In this document: positions 27,583 through 46,749 of the stretch, piece by piece
Layout: each line of letters begins with the position of its first letter
Numbering within the stretch: the stretch's first letter is position 1
Assembly: GCF_000165395.2 (NCBI RefSeq)
Contig: NW_026261571.1
Coordinates: 1,140,501-1,204,500 of the forward strand
Source of the DNA: Babesia bovis T2Bo
Lineage: Eukaryota; Apicomplexa; Aconoidasida; Piroplasmida; Babesiidae
Length of the DNA stretch: 64,000 bases
Direction: 5' to 3'
The notes under the pieces: generated by a model
Database searches by the model: none
Told to the model about the DNA's origin: nothing
Seen by the model: only the letters and a program-made list of their open reading frames with translations
Translations under genes and position numbers: made by a program

Positions 27583-28330
27583 TTATATGGGCCAAAATTT
27601 CAATTGCAACTGACGTTGCCTAAGGTCTACCTTGCTACGTAATGTAAAAGGACGACCCACGTCGGCCAACTGAGCGTATATGTACTCAACACGCTGTATC
27701 AGCGGATTCTCCAAAGAAAACGATAAAGGGAGTGTACTGTCAGCAGGTGGCGATATCGATGCAGATTGCTTGCGATTGGATTTAGTAAACACCACCAACT
27801 CAACACGATTGCCTGATTCTAAAAATTTTCGAGCTGATTGAATCTTGCGTTTAAAGTCATTCTCAGCGCAATGGGCCGATATTTGCACTACTTTTACCTT
27901 AAGACTAGGATCAAAGCGAAATACAGCATTGGAATCCTGCGAACCTGTCTCCACAGGCTTTGGCTTATGCTGCTCAATAAAATCCTCATACTTAGCCAAG
28001 ACGCAAATTGGCGGAGTAGATGACGGGCGGAATAGTATTAAATTGACACCTTCCCGTTTAGCAACGCTTAATGCCTCAGGAGTGTCAAAATCACCAACAA
28101 ACTTCCCGTCACGTAAAACACGAACACGAGGAGCTGTAATCTGGTCATCCAGCGGTAGCTGTAGGTATTAGTAGATAACTATGCTAACATACCTTCGGAC
28201 TACCGTCAGATAGCGTGCGATATGACCTAGGAGGACCAAGCGACTGACATCGAGACTCAATAGTTACACACTCACAAGTAGGAGCACACACCCTAGCGTA
28301 GATCCTCTTAAAGACGTTATTAAAGTACAT
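27583..28330 (-). CDS. Translation initiation factor IF-3, organellar
   Basis: Two exons (28193-28330, 27583-28158; 34-nt intron) give 237 residues. The bacterial-type IF-3 N-domain is seen in LPLDDQITAPRVRVL, FVGDFDTPEALSVAKREG and PICVLAKYEDF. The C-domain is in FDPSLKVKVVQISAHCAEN, then DFKRKIQSARKFLESGNRVE. IF-3 keeps the small ribosomal subunit free and checks the start codon, so a nuclear copy must serve the mitochondrion or apicoplast. The first 45 residues (MYFNNVFKRIYARVCAPTC onward) are basic but lack a hydrophobic signal peptide, which favours the mitochondrion if this start is right. The ATG at 28330 overlaps the last 11 bases of the upstream mTERF gene. Confidence 0.88.
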
Positions 28331-30656
28331 CTGTGGGTAAAGGAATCTTTAGGGCGTCTTCCTTGCCCTGAATCAAGTCGCGATAAGATAAATTGAAGTG
28401 TTGCTGAAACAGAGCATCATCATACTTAATGAGGATTTCAAAAGTTATATCGCTGTTAACCTGATCATATACAGCCATGTACTTGGAATGGTCAGGTGGT
28501 AGTATGTCAGGGATACGCTCATCCGTTACAGTCTGCCCGTAACCTTTATAAAAGCCAGATTCAAATAAGAATCGATAGACTTTCAAAAACTGGCCCTTGT
28601 ATATCTTGTTCATGACAGCTATGTGCCGAGGAATGATCCTGTCGTACAACGAGTAACTCAGGCATTTGGGAAAGTCTATTATATCACCTATAGAACGGCG
28701 CATCACACGACGGTAATAACGAATCTTCGGGCGCACAGTTCTAGGGACATTGAAAGTTAATACATTAGGGTATTTGTGGACAATATTGATTATATCACCA
28801 AATGTAAATCCCTCATCACTGTCATATAACTCTAGACAACGGTTGTAGAAGTTACCGTAACGCAGCACCTGAGGACGGGTCCTCCCAATCCACAAAATAT
28901 CCTCAAAACTGAATCCTAAGTCACAGTGAAGTCTCCTCATACGGTCAATTATAGTCGAGGGCTTAGATAAACCGATCTTGTGCATCCTTCTTAACATTTC
29001 CTTCACCTCATCCACGCTCCACGGAATTTTGCTACCGCGGGATACATCCCGAGCTGGCGGCTCCTGGTTTTCCGTATCTTTATCCCTAGATACTGTAGAA
29101 GTACTCTTGATGGCCTCAGAAGGTGGTAACATGGGTTCACTTAAGTATTGAGACATTTCCTTGGAAAATGATACCACCACCGGGTAGTCAATGCGATTGA
29201 CACTCTCCTTGGTACTGTACTCCGGCATTGTATCCTTGAAATTGTCCGAAAAGTTGCGATCCATGACTGCATCAAAGTCATATTCACTATTCGCAAGACG
29301 ATGGTTAATTAAGGAGTCGCAGGCGTCCAGGAAGCGCTTAAACACGCTGTTCCTGTTGTGCTCAAAAATGGGAAATGGCTCCCTTATGGTATCAGGCCTA
29401 GAACTGCGAACTTTAAGCAAGTGGTCTGCAAAAGGATCGTTCCGTATACGACCGATGCGAGCATATATCATTGGACGATAACGCTTTTGTGTTTTATCTG
29501 GCAGATCAGTTAGCAGTGGTATGTCACCTGAGTAGTCCATGTTGAATCTTGATACTGTCAATAAAAAGTCAACAGTACTCTCGAAAATGTTAGGCTTAGA
29601 CATGAAAAGCATGGAATCCCTTAATAGCCTCAACATCTCGTAATTACGCAATGCCAGTAAATGAGGTAAGCGGATGCGTTCCACCATATGGACCAAACGG
29701 CGCTGTGGCAGGGTCAAGAGTATTAATATGTTACTGTCCTCACTACTGTTGTCAAAACCCACTACAGTGCGCTTGACCTGAATGCGACTTTTATTCAAAT
29801 TGCGCTCACGCGGAGTCAGCTTCTGCAACTTGCCGTCAACGACCCTTTGCTTTATCTCAGGGCGTAACTCAGTGTACTCACGACGAACCACACGGTTGCA
29901 GTACTTCAAATCGTGCTTCATCTTCACAAGATTGTAGAATCGTAACGATTGTTGTGACGGCTCCGCAAAATACTTGTGCCAAAACCTACGGCCACGAGCC
30001 ATACGCTTTAAAAACCAATCCTCCTTGGGAGAAGGAGGCCTAGTCATGTCTCCGTCCTCCGGAGGTACGCCGTCGTCGACATCATAGTCCTCATTCTCAG
30101 GGGCAAGAGGTAACCCGGAGTCGTCATTCTCGTCAGTTATATTGTCATACTTCCTATTCAACTCCAATCGGTGGTCGTATTCAGCATCGGTAAATACCTT
30201 ATTGACAGATCCGAAAAATGAGCGTAATGCGAAATGGCGTGGTTTGTCCTTTGCATATAACCTTATATGTGATTGGAGCGGATGATCATCCGTTCCATGA
30301 TACTTGTCACTAGCATTAAGGTACCCAGATGACAAAGAAACAGCATAAATTACACCACTCCTACCGTGGCATAACGATCTATCACCTTTTATAAGTGTAG
30401 TAGAAGCACTATTGATGCCCGGGGTAAGAGTTCGTCCTACCTGGGTACATCTAAGTGGATCGAAGGCAACATGCCGAATGGGTTGCGAAATAAATGACAG
30501 ATTCCAGGTAATGCCACTCGGTACACGATGTGACAAGATATTTCCATGCCCGTTTCGATGCCTTGGGTCGTTTTTAACAATCACCCCGCGCATAGACAGA
30601 CATAGCTCCAGTGGCTCCAAGCAAAAAAGCAAAAAGAACACATGCCACAGCCACAT
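28320..30656 (-). CDS. mTERF-family protein with signal peptide (probably apicoplast)
   Basis: An intronless 778-residue protein. The N-terminus MWLWHVFFLLFCLEPLELCL is a strong signal peptide. It is followed by a long basic, Arg/His/Asn-rich stretch, the bipartite leader expected for an apicoplast protein. The C-terminal ~250 residues hold mTERF-type repeats: GFSFEDILWIGRTRPQVLRY, then GFTFGDIINIVHKYPNVLTF, and RRSIGDIIDFPKCLSYSLYD with RIIPRH, matching the recurring I-x-x-x-P-x-x-L-x-x-S pattern. mTERF proteins bind organellar nucleic acids and affect transcription, splicing or ribosome assembly. The middle is charged and of unknown fold. It overlaps the IF-3 gene, a possible functional pairing in organelle gene expression. 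Confidence 0.76.
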   Translation of the reverse strand: MWLWHVFFLLFCLEPLELCLSMRGVIVKNDPRHRNGHGNILSHRVPSGITWNLSFISQPIRHVAFDPLRCTQVGRTLTPGINSASTTLIKGDRSLCHGRSGVIYAVSLSSGYLNASDKYHGTDDHPLQSHIRLYAKDKPRHFALRSFFGSVNKVFTDAEYDHRLELNRKYDNITDENDDSGLPLAPENEDYDVDDGVPPEDGDMTRPPSPKEDWFLKRMARGRRFWHKYFAEPSQQSLRFYNLVKMKHDLKYCNRVVRREYTELRPEIKQRVVDGKLQKLTPRERNLNKSRIQVKRTVVGFDNSSEDSNILILLTLPQRRLVHMVERIRLPHLLALRNYEMLRLLRDSMLFMSKPNIFESTVDFLLTVSRFNMDYSGDIPLLTDLPDKTQKRYRPMIYARIGRIRNDPFADHLLKVRSSRPDTIREPFPIFEHNRNSVFKRFLDACDSLINHRLANSEYDFDAVMDRNFSDNFKDTMPEYSTKESVNRIDYPVVVSFSKEMSQYLSEPMLPPSEAIKSTSTVSRDKDTENQEPPARDVSRGSKIPWSVDEVKEMLRRMHKIGLSKPSTIIDRMRRLHCDLGFSFEDILWIGRTRPQVLRYGNFYNRCLELYDSDEGFTFGDIINIVHKYPNVLTFNVPRTVRPKIRYYRRVMRRSIGDIIDFPKCLSYSLYDRIIPRHIAVMNKIYKGQFLKVYRFLFESGFYKGYGQTVTDERIPDILPPDHSKYMAVYDQVNSDITFEILIKYDDALFQQHFNLSYRDLIQGKEDALKIPLPTDVL

Positions 30657-30801
30657 TTTTCGTCATAGTGCCAATATAGATGCCTTAACGCACACATTGA
30701 CACATTATAGAAATAATAAATCGCAATGTGTATCTCCCTAGTGTGTACCCATCCCAGATTCCACACTAGAATATATCGATTATTGGCAATATAAATATAT
30801 T

Positions 30802-41073: not shown

Positions 41074-43230
41074 ATGCAGATGTTTTTAATCGTAGAGCTG
41101 CTTGCTCTCGTGATAGCAATATGTCAAGCAATAAGTATATCAAGCCGAAATGTAAATGCCGTTAACGAAACGAAACATAGAAAGGCATATGCATTGTCTT
41201 TTATTACACCTTCATCATGCTCAAGACAGAATGGTGCCATTATACCCAAACGCTGGGATGGAACAAGATGCAGGGATGTTAAAGTAAGTCACTTTTGCAA
41301 CGTACATATGTACAGTGCTATGGAGTTCCACGAATGTTCTACTGGCTGCTGGATAACTTCGGCTCTTTTAAGTCCGGCTTAGAGAAAGTAATTGAAAGTA
41401 GGTAGTTATCTAGTGACACAATATAATATAGGACGGCCAGTGGATCATCTATACATGGATATGAACGCAGTTATACATGTCGCCACCCATGGTAACATAT
41501 CACCCGTAGTTCAAATGGCAAATGAACAAAGATTAAGAAGAATTACATCAGCCATAGAAATGATGTTCGATATAGTCAGACCAAGGAAAATGCTCTATAT
41601 GGCAGTAGATGGAGTGTGCCCAACCGCAAAAATCAATCAACAACGTGGAAGAAGGTTTCTTACGTCAAAAAACGTTGACCCTTTAGTAAGTAAATTGACT
41701 TCAAACCATAATCTATAGGCTGATATATGCAGCGCAGTGTCAGCAGAAGATGGATATACATATATAGCGAAAAGGTTGCCTTTCGACGAATATGATAATG
41801 TATCGTTCAATCCAAATTACATTTCTCCAGGTACCGATTTTATGAAAATTGTCGATAGCGAAATTTCAAACTGGCTAGCATTAAAAACAGAAGAAGGCTT
41901 CTTTGGAAAATGCATGGTGACGTATAATGGCGTTACAGTGCCTGGAGAAGGAGAACATAAGATATTCCAGTGTATACGGAAAATGAATAAGGTATGTAAA
42001 AGATCCAGAAAGGATGTCCACCTAGTTTATGGCTTGGATGCTGACCTCATGATGCTTTCTATGGCAGTGAAAATGCCAAATATCAAAGTACTCAGAGAAG
42101 AACGGAACTACGCACCACATGTAGTCTCAAAAAAGAAAGGTGAACCGTACTTCTCAACCGATACAGGTATAGTACACCTACATAAATGGGACTTTATTGA
42201 CCTCAAAAAAACACATTTCGAAGTTGCTTCGTTGCATTCGCTCAGGAAACGTATGTATGAAAGATGCTGGGGGTATATCATGAGGAAATACGGACCATCT
42301 AGTTCCTCATTCCTCAACAGACCTGAAGCGCCATATCGCATTACTGATGATTTTGTGCTATTGTCTTTCCTAGCAGGTTCGTGGTATAATCACAAATCTC
42401 ATTCACCCGCTAGGTAACGATTTCTTGCCAAGATTGCCTACAGTAGACCTTGCAAATGACAGCTTCAAACAGATGCTGGTCACCTACTATGGACTCATGC
42501 ACAAGTGGCAAGGATTCTTGACCGACGGATCTAAAATACATGTACCAAGGCTGCAAACGTTATTCAAGTCCTTGGCAAAGCACGAAATGGAGTGGTTCAA
42601 AGAGAAGGGGATAATCGAAGGAGTTCCCGAATATAGCGACCGAAAACTATACGCTGATTACTACCATGAAAACAAATGTCAAGTAGATTCAAAAGCAAAC
42701 GTAAAGAAAATGTGTATAGACTATATTAAGGTACGTCACTTTGAATGTAGTTGTTATCTATGGACAGGGACTTTTCTGGATACTTATCTACTACCACCAT
42801 GACTGCCCAAGCTGGGATTGGTAGGTCGAAAAGATCGCATCTTACACACCTACAGGAGTTACCGATACCACTATGCCCCGTTGGTGTCCGATCTCGCAGA
42901 AGTACCTAACATAGAGGTTACATTTAATAAAGGAGGGCCTATAACACCATTGGAGCATCTTCTGGCAGTATCCCCGCCAAATAACACTGAACTCCTCCCT
43001 CCATCATACAGGTAATACAGACAAATGGCGCAAAATGTCGATATAGGAAACTATCTGCGTCGACAGGAGAGTTGCGACAGTACTTCCCTACGGAATTTGA
43101 AATAAATGAAGATGGCAGAATTCACGAATGGGAGCATGTGGTAAAATTGCCATTCGTAAACACACAGAAGCTTGTGAAAGCAGCTCAAAAGGCTAACCCG
43201 GGATTGAAATACAGCTCCCTATATAAGTAG
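41074..43230 (+). CDS. XRN-family 5'-3' exoribonuclease with ER/apicoplast-type leader
   Basis: Eight exons (41074-41283, 41316-41397, 41432-41685, 41719-42376, 42414-42730, 42768-42820, 42856-43011, 43047-43230) join to 637 residues, with seven introns of 32-37 nt. Conserved XRN blocks: GVPRMFYWLLDNFG, LYMDMNAVIHVATH, AVDGVCPTAKINQQRGRRF, YISPGTDFM, VPGEGEHKIFQC, YGLDADLMMLSM, GNDFLPRLP, and a C-terminal YHYAPLVSDL with a D-W-E-type end. The acidic active site is intact. XRN proteins normally begin MGVPR; here that block is preceded by about 70 residues encoded by exon 1, starting MQMFLIVELLALVIAICQAI (signal peptide) followed by a basic, Asn/Lys/Arg-containing stretch. There is no in-frame methionine directly before GVPR, so the leader is needed. 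It is much shorter than XRN1 and XRN2. Confidence 0.88.
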
Positions 43231-43757
43231 GTCCAATCCATACATTATAACAAAACCATAGGAACAAAAAAGGGCATGTGTATGTATACCAGAAATTGCC
43301 ATAAGATACATTGTCTGATGTTCAAACGGACGGTATCTGATACCGCAATCTTAAGGTCAATTTACCAGGTACACTAACACACAACCCGTACTGTGTGAGA
43401 GCATAGCAGAAAACTTCAAACTTCCATCTAATTATATCACAACTATTGGCTTTAGAAAAGGATTAGTGTCATATGACATCTGACTTTTATCTATTCATCA
43501 AAGAATCTAACGCTTATTGGATACTAATACCTTGCGTTACACATTGACAATAAACTTTCACTTCAGGTCACACCTTTCACTAGAATGTTTTCTGTTGAAT
43601 CAATAATCATAGATACAACAATAAGACACATTAGTAACACATATCAGCATTATGTAGAACCATCAATGCCGCGCTATAACAATTAGGACTATATTTGAAC
43701 CTCAGATTAACATTTGAATGTATTTAAAAGTTTAAAACTGTAAAGATATACAATCGT
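43231..43757. other. Intergenic gap
   Basis: About 530 bp between two plus-strand genes, AT-rich. Nothing coding, structured or repeated was recognised. Confidence 0.5.
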
Positions 43758-46749
43758 ATGCACATGGTGTATCCTGATGGACACAGTGGATGGAGCGTCG
43801 AGTTCAACCTCGATCGCAGCAATGATGCACATCCAAAAGATGAATCTTCGGAACAGGCGTACACCAATGGCTTGGACGATGAAAAGAAAGTGATGACAGT
43901 CACCCCGGGATTACATTGCGGTCCAGCAGGACGGAGAACATTGATCAAGTGGATAGAAGGTAGGTTATAGTATACTAGTTACTATGATTGCAGACAATTA
44001 TAAAATGCGGAAGAAGGCGCATCATGTTAACCCAGGCGTGCGGGCTTGCAAGCTTTGGCAAGATTCACAAGGATTCTCCGAACCTGTATGTCAATGTCTT
44101 CCATTTACCTACGTTGCAGATAGCAAAAGCTATAGTTGAATTGTTAAGGCTAAACGGTGTCACAGCTAATGTAACATATAAAGATGTTTTTGAAAACCAT
44201 CTCTGCAAATTATTTTCAACGCTCATCAAGAAGTCGCCGGACGATAGAGAAAGGCATGTCATATTACGCAAAATATAAACATCTCAGATTGATCACGCTA
44301 ACAGAAAAAATGATGTCAATGTTTCAAGTAACACAAATACAACCTCTTATCTGTGATGTATTGGTTAAATTAGACGAAATACCACAGTTCGCCATGATAA
44401 AACTACTTGACAAAACGTCATCAGCAGAAAATTTCTTCAAGGTATGGTTTATAAGGTTATCCCAGAATTATGTCTATACAGATTGCACCAATGACTGTGA
44501 AAAGGAAAATATTGGCGGCTTCACCAGAAAGGTTGTATGACATCGTGTCACCGCTTATAGAAGATGCATTATTTCTCCTAGATCTCGGGGTAACTGATGT
44601 GGCATCATTCTTATACAATATATAGATCCTAGAAGATGATATGAAAGAAACGAAATTGTATACGGGATATCATAAGAAATATACCCATATAATAGAAACA
44701 ATAGTAGAACTTATTGGGCCGCCCAAAACACAATGCTCCAAGACAATATACTTTTTAGTTCAACAGATCATAAGGGTGATGTTCATGAGAAGCGTGCTTA
44801 CTGCAAAATCTTCAAGAAATAAAATAAAAGATATAGAATACGAAATCGGGTTTGAACATGTGGTCTTTGATTCTGTCAAATTCCATATGATCAACAATGA
44901 GGACGATGATCCGTATGCTGTATACAGGAGATATGCAGAAATGTCTGTATGCATAGTCTACAATCTAGAGAAAAACGCAGATGAAACCGTTAGAAGCGTT
45001 AGTGAGATCAAATGTCCAGGCAACGGAGCATGGAATCTGAGTGCCATTCGACATTCAATAACGGTGACATACCAAGAAAAGTATATGTTACAACCAAACG
45101 AAATAATGGCTTTAGAACCACTGACTTCGGCTATCCAACTAGTTACTACAATAACAGATGGGTCAACGGGAAAACTTCCAACGGAATTGTTTCACAGAAT
45201 GACTAAACAAAAAGGTCAAAATTTGAAGATTAAGGTGGGTATAAACTTTTATGTTAATTATTAACAGAATGATATGGAACTGTTCGACCTTACATTTATG
45301 TTAAGCCACCCGCTAGTGGCCAACTGTATCTTGGCATATGCAATAGGAATGATAAAAGATACAAGCGACGCCATCATATCTCTAAGAGCAGGAATGGATG
45401 AGTGGTTAGCATTGTTAGCACTGGGTAGTTTTAATTGTATATCAAAGATAACATATCAGGGCTATCTTCACATTATATAGCGGCATTTAAGTACTTTGTA
45501 GAAGCGGAGCTTCATCTAACTGGTATATTCATGATCCTCTGTTTTAAGTGCGTTCAGGTGACATATGCTGTACAAAATCATTTCTGAAGCCATTGAAAAG
45601 CGAGGGTAAACCGGTGTCCTTGTCGAAATTGGTTTCATATGTATATCCTTTGGATAAGGGTACCAAACACGGAGGGAATGATTTGCCGCCATTCCTAACA
45701 AATATCACGATACAAAAAACCTCAAAACAAGGAAATGCCAAAGATGAAAACATGGATTCGCATCTGAGTTTCCATGAATTACTACTTATGTATATGCCAA
45801 GGATAGATATATCGGCGTTAAAGAAGTTTATGGCTGTCTGCGACGATTTCTATCTAATAAGAGAAACTACTAATGATATAAAAGGTGTGTTTTATAAAAT
45901 GGTTTTTATAACACGCAGCCGATGGTACCCAGTTGTTAAGGAGCATACTGGAAGCTTATCAGGAGCCTAACCTAGATCCTAGGGGCCTTATACAAAAGAT
46001 GTCTACCGCTGTAGAAAACCATAGAGATACTGCGTCACAGAAGTATATATTAGCATTAGAAAAACTTCATGGAAAATTCAAGTTTATCAACAGCAGCGTA
46101 ATGGGAATATTGACGAACACATCCAATATCACAAAGCTATTCCAGAAAATGGTAAGTGAACATATATATAACCTGTATGGCATATAGGTTGGTCTAAAAA
46201 TCATCGCAAAGGGAGTAACACACAAAATGTCAAGACCTGTGATTAAGCCCGTTTTGTACGAAGAAATCAAAAAGTATGTAAACCACTTATAGAACATATG
46301 TAGCATCATGCAGGATAAATCTAGTACACCTCAGAAAACCGGCGGATTATCTATGCCTATGTCTTATTAGGCTAGGATTCTCAGCAATGAACTTGGTGGA
46401 ATTCGACTCACTCGCGGAATTCATTGCCAACATAACTATTCAAGGACAACTTGCAGCGTTCATCCCGCTATATGCATTAGCAGCCAAGCGTGGAAGTTCA
46501 CAGGAAATAGAACGCCATATAAACAACATATATGGGTAAACGTATTTATGAACCTCAACAAATGTGTACAGCCTAGGGAATCAACTCTTTAATAACCAAG
46601 AGGACTATCGCAAAAAGGAGTTGTATACAGCAGCTTTCACTCATATCCAAGGATTATACGATATCCAAGAAACACATAGCACGATGCACCCACGTGAACA
46701 AACCACAGAACATCTCGAAGATCCATATAAAGAAAACATAATAAAATAA
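43758..46749 (+). CDS. Multi-exon helical protein, unknown function
   Basis: A train of plus-strand open segments separated by short GT-AG introns. The first joins are clear (43758-43959, 43994-44085, then from 44120); another clear one removes ~41 nt after AENFFK near 44440 and continues IAPMTVKRKILAASPERLYD. Later segments include 44641-45240, 45274-45440, 45548-45880, 45933-46150 and the end at 46564-46749. Exons between 44170 and 44290, and several after 45400, could not be fixed, so the span is approximate and may hold more than one gene. The product is helix-rich with no recognised motif, similar in style to the 910-residue helical protein and to apicomplexan organellar RNA-binding repeat proteins. 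The tail is acidic and polar (THSTMHPREQTTEHLEDPYK). Confidence 0.5.

Follow-up and report, generated by a model that had tools for sequence, protein, structure and literature searches.

A compact XRN-type exoribonuclease gene of Babesia bovis with a leader that probably addresses its product to the apicoplast

Within the window, a stretch of 64,000 nucleotides from contig NW_026261571.1 of Babesia bovis T2Bo, there is a gene at 41074-43304 on the forward strand that encodes a compact XRN-type 5'-3' exoribonuclease. The protein begins with an N-terminal leader and is related in sequence to leader-bearing XRN proteins of ochrophyte algae. Sequence comparison indicates that this nuclear-encoded enzyme is likely addressed to the apicoplast, probably to its stroma, where it would degrade 5'-monophosphate RNA. 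The initial annotation of this DNA had offered two destinations, the apicoplast and the endoplasmic reticulum (ER). The apicoplast proposal is strengthened because similar leaders occur in Babesia and Theileria and because most of the leader-bearing ochrophyte-type XRNs compared combine a hydrophobic core with an ASAFAP-like motif, as plastid leaders of diatoms do. Nothing that we found favours the ER over the plastid. An organellar enzyme is well supported by comparison.

The spliced translation and comparison with orthologues give a gene of nine exons, the ninth of them probable, encoding 650 amino acids. Its introns are 32-37 nucleotides long and all GT..AG. The parts of the gene, all on the forward strand, are:

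41074..41283, forward: exon 1, the entire leader to residue 70, with a hydrophobic core at residues 4-14 and then a basic stretch with YALSFITP
41284..41315, forward: intron 1, 32 nucleotides, GTAAGT..ACAG, phase 0
41316..41397, forward: exon 2, CYGVPR (TGC TAT GGA GTT CCA CGA) and the start of the XRN core
41432..41685, forward: exon 3, LYMDMN and AVDG...KINQQRGRRF, with acids and the 5'-phosphate pocket
41719..42376, forward: exon 4, PGEGEH and GLDADL
42414..42730, forward: exon 5, NDFLP (whose G codon intron 4 interrupts) and the short linker
42768..42820, forward: exon 6, GLFWILIYYHHDCPSWDW
42856..43011, forward: exon 7, SYRYHYAPLVSDL..., absent from the annotated model P0001
43047..43226, forward: exon 8, ending within ...SLYK
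43227..43261, forward: probable intron 8, 35 nucleotides, GTAGGT..ATAG
43262..43304, forward: probable exon 9, NKKGHVYVYQKLP and the stop, by comparison with P0002, P0004, P0005 and P0006

The leader is encoded by the first exon. As the initial annotation had observed, GVPR is not preceded by a methionine: from the upstream stop (41280) to GVPR the frame contains no Met. Its hydrophobic and basic leader exon also held up, since this exon is joined in phase through the 32-nucleotide GT..AG intron at 41284-41315 with an open frame. We examined first-exon models with an ATG start, an in-phase splice before GVPR and an intron of 20-400 nucleotides. Fifty-four such models lay upstream of GVPR, two of which combined a donor resembling the others in the gene with an intron no longer than 100 nucleotides; both are the same exon, with the ATG at 41074 or 41080. 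Residues 4-14 have a mean Kyte-Doolittle value of 3.06 over 11 residues and, by hydropathy, have the build of an N-terminal signal peptide. The whole stretch after this core contains 10 K/R and 3 D/E and is thus a basic, acid-poor transit stretch by the 5:3 rule (K+R:D+E) for apicoplast transit peptides as quoted in PMC3344922. The protein therefore has a leader upstream of GVPR instead of the MGVP or MGIP start of the XRN family.

At the other end of the gene, the eight-exon splicing of the initial annotation also gives an open frame, but its stop at 43228-43230 probably lies within intron 8. Splicing out 43227-43261, a 35-nucleotide GT..AG intron, gives a tail ...LYKNKKGHVYVYQKLP that reads NKKGHVYVYQ, with a stop at 43304. 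Four other Babesia models (P0002, P0004, P0005, P0006) continue with ...LYKNKKGHI(Y/F)VYQ or similar, and because these orthologue models run on past ...LYK we regard intron 8 and exon 9 as probable. Counter to this, the piroplasm models P0003 and P0011 stop at ...LYK, as in the initial annotation. The best match of the gene was the annotated B. bovis entry XP_001610853.1 (P0001, 509 aa), which takes the Met after GVPR as its start and is missing the leader as well as exons 7 and 9.

Public models of the orthologue are often wrong, the B. bovis entry without its leader and two exons being one case. The T. equi model P0010 is fused upstream to another gene and its leader is not readable, the T. 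annulata P0011 and T. orientalis P0012 models lack the GLFWxLSYY part, and the B. duncani model P0227 is fused downstream and includes a tRNA-intron endonuclease domain (PF01974).

The core of the protein is that of an XRN enzyme. In the 637-aa form, Pfam XRN_N matched residues 73-310 (E 2.8e-61, 207 bits against a cut-off of 22.9) and was followed by XRN_M (E 7.3e-60, 204 bits against a cut-off of 23.8), the pair of domains that marks the XRN family. By Pfam, these were the sole domains, reaching residue 630 of 637, and no XRN1 C-terminal domain was present. The acidic motifs that the initial annotation described as retained were located in the protein, and their columns are invariant in 41 aligned relatives. 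The same is true of a K/Q/R/R pocket. We take the acids to be catalytic and the K/Q/R/R residues to form the 5'-monophosphate pocket. All 14 matched sequences in the PDB were Xrn1, Xrn2 or Rat1-type exoribonucleases, including one with the clone name LD22664P that is Xrn1 according to entry 2y35.

Predicted structures have the same plan. The AlphaFold model of the orthologue from Babesia sp. Xinjiang contains a helix at residues 3-21, followed by residues 21-76 with a predicted local distance difference test score (pLDDT) below 50. The pLDDT is at least 90 in 373 of its 639 residues, and there is a further low loop at 186-211. With Foldseek, this model matched human XRN1 and Rat1/XRN2. P0063, a diatom-type relative, was modelled with less confidence (mean pLDDT 67.8) but shows the same arrangement, with a helix at 19-33, low confidence to residue 95 and then the core.

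The genome searched comprises 8.23 Mb in 8 contigs, and the window lies on contig C4 (1,797,577 bases). XRN_N occurs at three places in it: this gene, an XRN2-like gene (L001) and an XRN1-like gene (L002), the latter two starting with MGVP.

The initial annotation had suggested a search for orthologues with the same leader, and the orthologues of Babesia and Theileria have leaders of similar length and build in the corresponding position. Fifteen piroplasm entries (P0001-P0014 and P0227) were available. Nine have at least 25 residues before GVPR and no Met there, one of these being the fused T. equi P0010; one has 17 residues before GVPR, and five are cut models without GVPR. The leaders of eight orthologues were compared with that of B. 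bovis (n=9). Leader length was 71-87 residues in eight of the nine, the B. microti leader having 35, and the hydrophobic core reached at least 1.8 in eight. The leaders of B. bovis, Babesia sp. Xinjiang, B. bigemina, B. gibsoni and B. divergens have a motif, (A/S)F(L/I)xP, in common, which sits further downstream than the F..P motif of algal-type leaders.

Outside the piroplasms, the best scores (among the best 120 listed) include Vitrella (388 bits), metagenome proteins, red algae and ochrophytes. In a set of 312 XRN proteins, 118 start with MGxP, 112 have a leader without Met at GxP (9 of them piroplasm proteins) and 5 have a leader with Met at GxP; the 68 with no recognisable GxP start and 9 with short extensions were kept out of the leader counts. 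A hydrophobic core was present in 98 of the 108 leader-bearing non-piroplasm XRNs, a number that describes the subfamily and not prevalence because most rows came from a query alignment built on leader-bearing sequences, and in none of the 118 with an MGxP start. An ASAFAP-like F..P motif lay within 22 residues of the core end in 81 of the 108, compared to 14.3 +/- 3.5 (maximum 25) in 200 shuffles. A typical leader of this kind reads core-NAFAPP...STALFGIPKMFRWL. Such a motif after a signal peptide is described in PMC4329603 as the standard diatom plastid leader and is tied there to plastid import. Leader-bearing rows that carry a name include Stephanopyxis turris, Pseudo-nitzschia pungens, Cyclotella, Thalassiosira, Skeletonema, Nitzschia, Cylindrotheca, Mayamaea, Seminavis, a pelagophyte and Chrysoparadoxa. 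Among 23 ochrophyte-type rows, 22 have at least 33 residues before GIP, two of these with Met there. All nine red algal-type rows used in the tree start with MG(I/V)P and have no leader.

For the tree, 67 rows were hand-picked from the matches; removal of 15 long-branch or near-duplicate rows left 52, and removal of 19 left 48. The 'red algal' group consists of nine rows, five of which bear a red algal name (P0018, P0020, P0231, P0234, P0236). Of 18 ochrophyte-type rows in the 52-row tree, five are named (P0016, P0160, P0201, P0244, P0248) and the rest are metagenome or transcriptome rows placed by sequence. Piroplasms, the Vitrella group and ochrophyte types were separated from red algal types and XRN1/XRN2 with support of 97/98.9, and the same grouping was obtained with 48 rows (98/96.4). 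In the latter tree, this grouping together with the red algal types was separated from eight XRN2 rows with support of 100/100. The pairing of piroplasms with Vitrella was weak (61/83.8). The B. bovis enzyme did not group with XRN2/Rat1 in the tree, nor with B. bovis XRN2 in the approximately unbiased (AU) test.

The linker, counted on the alignment from GNDF to GLxW, is independent of the tree. It has 104-106 residues in all nine piroplasm rows, 105-106 in three Vitrella-group rows, 105-110 in nine red algal-type rows and 103-196 in 23 ochrophyte-type rows. In 14 of 15 XRN1/XRN2 rows it has 131-274, the plant row P0115 having 106. The B. bovis enzyme and the leader-bearing ochrophyte XRNs are probably members of a single subfamily, related to a compact XRN of red algae.

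Other proteins turned up by these comparisons include a red-type protein outside the tree (P0025), whose N-terminal extension ends in Met, and a group of compact XRNs some 550 aa long (MGVPKFFRWLSERYPL(I/V)NQ; P0050, P0061, P0064, P0067, P0072 and similar, from jgi, ena, lgn and mmetsp sources), of which the rows tried fall with the red algal types. Two Cannabis sativa proteins, P0121 and P0132 (1314 and 1248 aa), scored very high against the leader-clade profile and possibly contain duplicated XRN domains.

Several observations weigh against an apicoplast enzyme of this ancestry. The T. orientalis leader is weakly hydrophobic (1.55), the B. microti leader is short and devoid of charged residues (K, R, D, E) beyond its core, and the K+R:D+E ratio over the post-core stretch reaches 5:3 in just five of nine piroplasm leaders. 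By the rule that we used, the F..P motif is absent from 27 of 108 algal-type leaders. The annotated Vitrella protein starts with MGIPK and has no leader, as is the case for one ochrophyte-type tree row, P0204. The piroplasm stem is long (2.41), and the AU test keeps both a position of the piroplasms beside the XRN1/XRN2 group (p 0.283; 0.239 with 48 rows) and one beside the red algal group (p 0.285; 0.24 with 48 rows). No protein named Plasmodium, Toxoplasma or Cryptosporidium was among the best 120 of 2115, 7987 and 1730 matches, so either the enzyme is not general to apicoplasts or orthologues were missed among these best-120 listings.

Some of these points bear on where the protein goes. 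The same leader could take the enzyme into the ER for work elsewhere in the secretory system (the ER lumen, the periplastid space or outside the cell), for example on foreign RNA. A signal peptide alone would suffice for this, and the incomplete agreement with the charge rule (five of nine leaders) and the near lack of a transit region in B. microti fit it. We consider it unlikely, given the F-type motif after the core in 81 of 108 non-piroplasm leaders and its tie to plastid import in PMC4329603, the preservation of leader length well beyond a signal peptide in eight of nine piroplasms, and the tree grouping with ochrophyte types. Mitochondrial RNA, like that of the apicoplast, is polycistronic, and the basic stretch of B. 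bovis is poor in acids, as would suit a mitochondrial presequence or dual targeting. The N-terminus is a hydrophobic core, however, and not an amphipathic basic helix, and most leader-bearing relatives have plastid-type leaders; a mitochondrial destination is very improbable.

Others bear on origin and on the gene model. The gene might have arisen recently by duplication of a nuclear or cytosolic XRN of the parasite, with later gain of a leader; for this speaks that the AU test keeps a place of the piroplasms next to the whole XRN1/XRN2 group (p 0.28). The test rejected a pairing with B. bovis XRN2 (p-AU 2.6e-5) or with XRN1 (0.011), however, and the linker of 104-106 residues resembles that of the red algal group (105-110) rather than the 131-274 of 14 of 15 XRN1/XRN2 rows. 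Moreover, YYH replaces YYY in seven of nine piroplasm rows, the other two having YYN and YYY. We regard such a duplication as quite improbable. It is scarcely credible that the leader exon is an artefact of the gene model and that the true protein starts elsewhere. The annotated model P0001 does start with MFYW, within the XRN core, but a protein beginning there would be without the G and P of GVP, both of them invariant. The search for first exons gave neither an in-frame Met nor a second native-like candidate, and other species have like leaders.

An apicoplast XRN could work in the following manner. The signal peptide would bring the protein into the ER, and the exposed basic transit peptide would then direct its import across the inner membranes. 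The leader would then be removed, leaving a protein that starts at or near YGVPR. In XRN proteins the N-terminal residues lie packed close to the active site, so activity would depend on this cleavage. Once localized in the stroma, the enzyme would degrade or trim 5'-monophosphate RNAs, such as the pieces left downstream when an endonuclease cuts a polycistronic or antisense transcript. Apicoplast transcripts are described in PMC5404108 as polycistronic, cut at specific sites that are often at tRNA ends, and accompanied by antisense RNA. We infer that the XRN clears the 5'-monophosphate RNAs which these cuts leave.

In plant chloroplasts, 5'-3' decay of plastid RNA is carried out by RNase J, whose place the XRN may occupy. 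In a six-frame family search of the B. bovis genome made without introns, which a split gene could escape, there were no RNase E/G or PNPase domains. The same search gave only a partial 25.7-bit match to RNase J (cut-off 400), in a gene with CPSF73-100_C. On the basis of this six-frame search, we rejected a hidden RNase J: the best RMMBL locus has CPSF73-100_C and the second, L005, is an RMMBL-only fragment without an RNase J match. The leader-bearing XRN itself does not have the MBL, beta-CASP and RMMBL domains of RNase J. RNB matches occurred at two loci. One of these (L008:319-3270) begins with MLLGSGTARAFFNVYANYLLYARRRC, a possible organelle leader, and its product is a candidate 3'-5' partner in organellar RNA decay.

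By term search, the words 'exonuclease' and 'degradation' are absent from the review of apicoplast transcription, PMC5404108. Because of this silence, and because the family search of B. bovis gave neither RNase J nor RNase E/G nor PNPase domains, the decay of RNA in apicoplasts and complex plastids looks to be still an open question. The terms exonuclease, ribonuclease, RNA degradation, Xrn and RNase are likewise absent from the main text of PMC5462543, on the ancient ochrophyte plastid proteome, whose supplements could hold them. Among the titles listed by searches of open-access literature, none had a plastid XRN as its subject, and passages in papers that mention both XRN and the apicoplast speak of the Plasmodium XRN1 homologue PF3D7_1106300.

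The initial annotation had drawn on neighbouring organellar genes, IF-3 and mTERF, which lend little to the argument since these matches are 12-13 kb away and the adjoining genes are different. The mTERF-domain match (28320-30662, reverse strand) is the single one found in this genome, and close to it is an IF-3 C-terminal-like match (27784-27900, reverse strand) that is below the cut-off. One adjacent gene is Nup54-like. The downstream adjacent gene (GLHCGPAGRRTLIKWIEG...) presumably encodes a gamma-tubulin complex component. At 43728-43967 of the window, it matches residues 674-723 of the B. duncani P0227 fusion (50% of 60, E 3e-14), and gene order is therefore largely common to B. bovis and B. 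duncani. Rfam and tRNA scans of the window gave no match.

Because the XRNs of B. bovis and of diatoms and related algae carry plastid-type leaders, their sequences suggest that, in plastids derived from red algae, RNA is destroyed from the 5' end by an enzyme of eukaryotic and not of bacterial type. A possible history, which we put forward tentatively, is that the XRN of the red algal endosymbiont moved to the host nucleus, was redirected into the bacterial-type plastid stroma and replaced RNase J there, and that ochrophytes, Vitrella and piroplasms retained this plastid XRN. An XRN that bears plastid-type leaders in relatives on the parasite side and the diatom side alike is a concrete candidate for plastid RNA decay. 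If the proposal is correct, a eukaryotic decay enzyme would act on uncapped bacterial-type RNA, possibly as a relic of the cytosol of the red alga. Complex plastids of the red lineage, the piroplasm apicoplast among them, would then decay RNA with a eukaryotic core enzyme. The parasite would also have a protein unlike canonical XRN1 and XRN2 in its linker and targeting.

XRN_N, XRN_M, the acids, the 5'-phosphate pocket and the overall fold are common to the B. bovis enzyme and XRN1 (Pacman). The B. bovis enzyme differs in having a leader instead of an MGVP start and a compact linker, and it lacks the further domains of the XRN1-like row P0294, having XRN_N and XRN_M alone by Pfam. It has its core domains and fold in common with XRN2, Rat1 and plant XRN4 as well; unlike these, the piroplasm enzyme has a leader and no long linker, with YYH for YYY in most piroplasm rows, and it does not pair with B. 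bovis XRN2 in the tree test. Chloroplast RNase J resembles it in the role proposed here, 5'-3' decay of plastid RNA, but has a different fold (MBL/beta-CASP) and was not found in B. bovis by family search. The Plasmodium apicoplast exonuclease/FEN (PMC11260460) is likewise an apicoplast-targeted nuclease and, unlike XRN, is by its title a FEN-type DNA enzyme.
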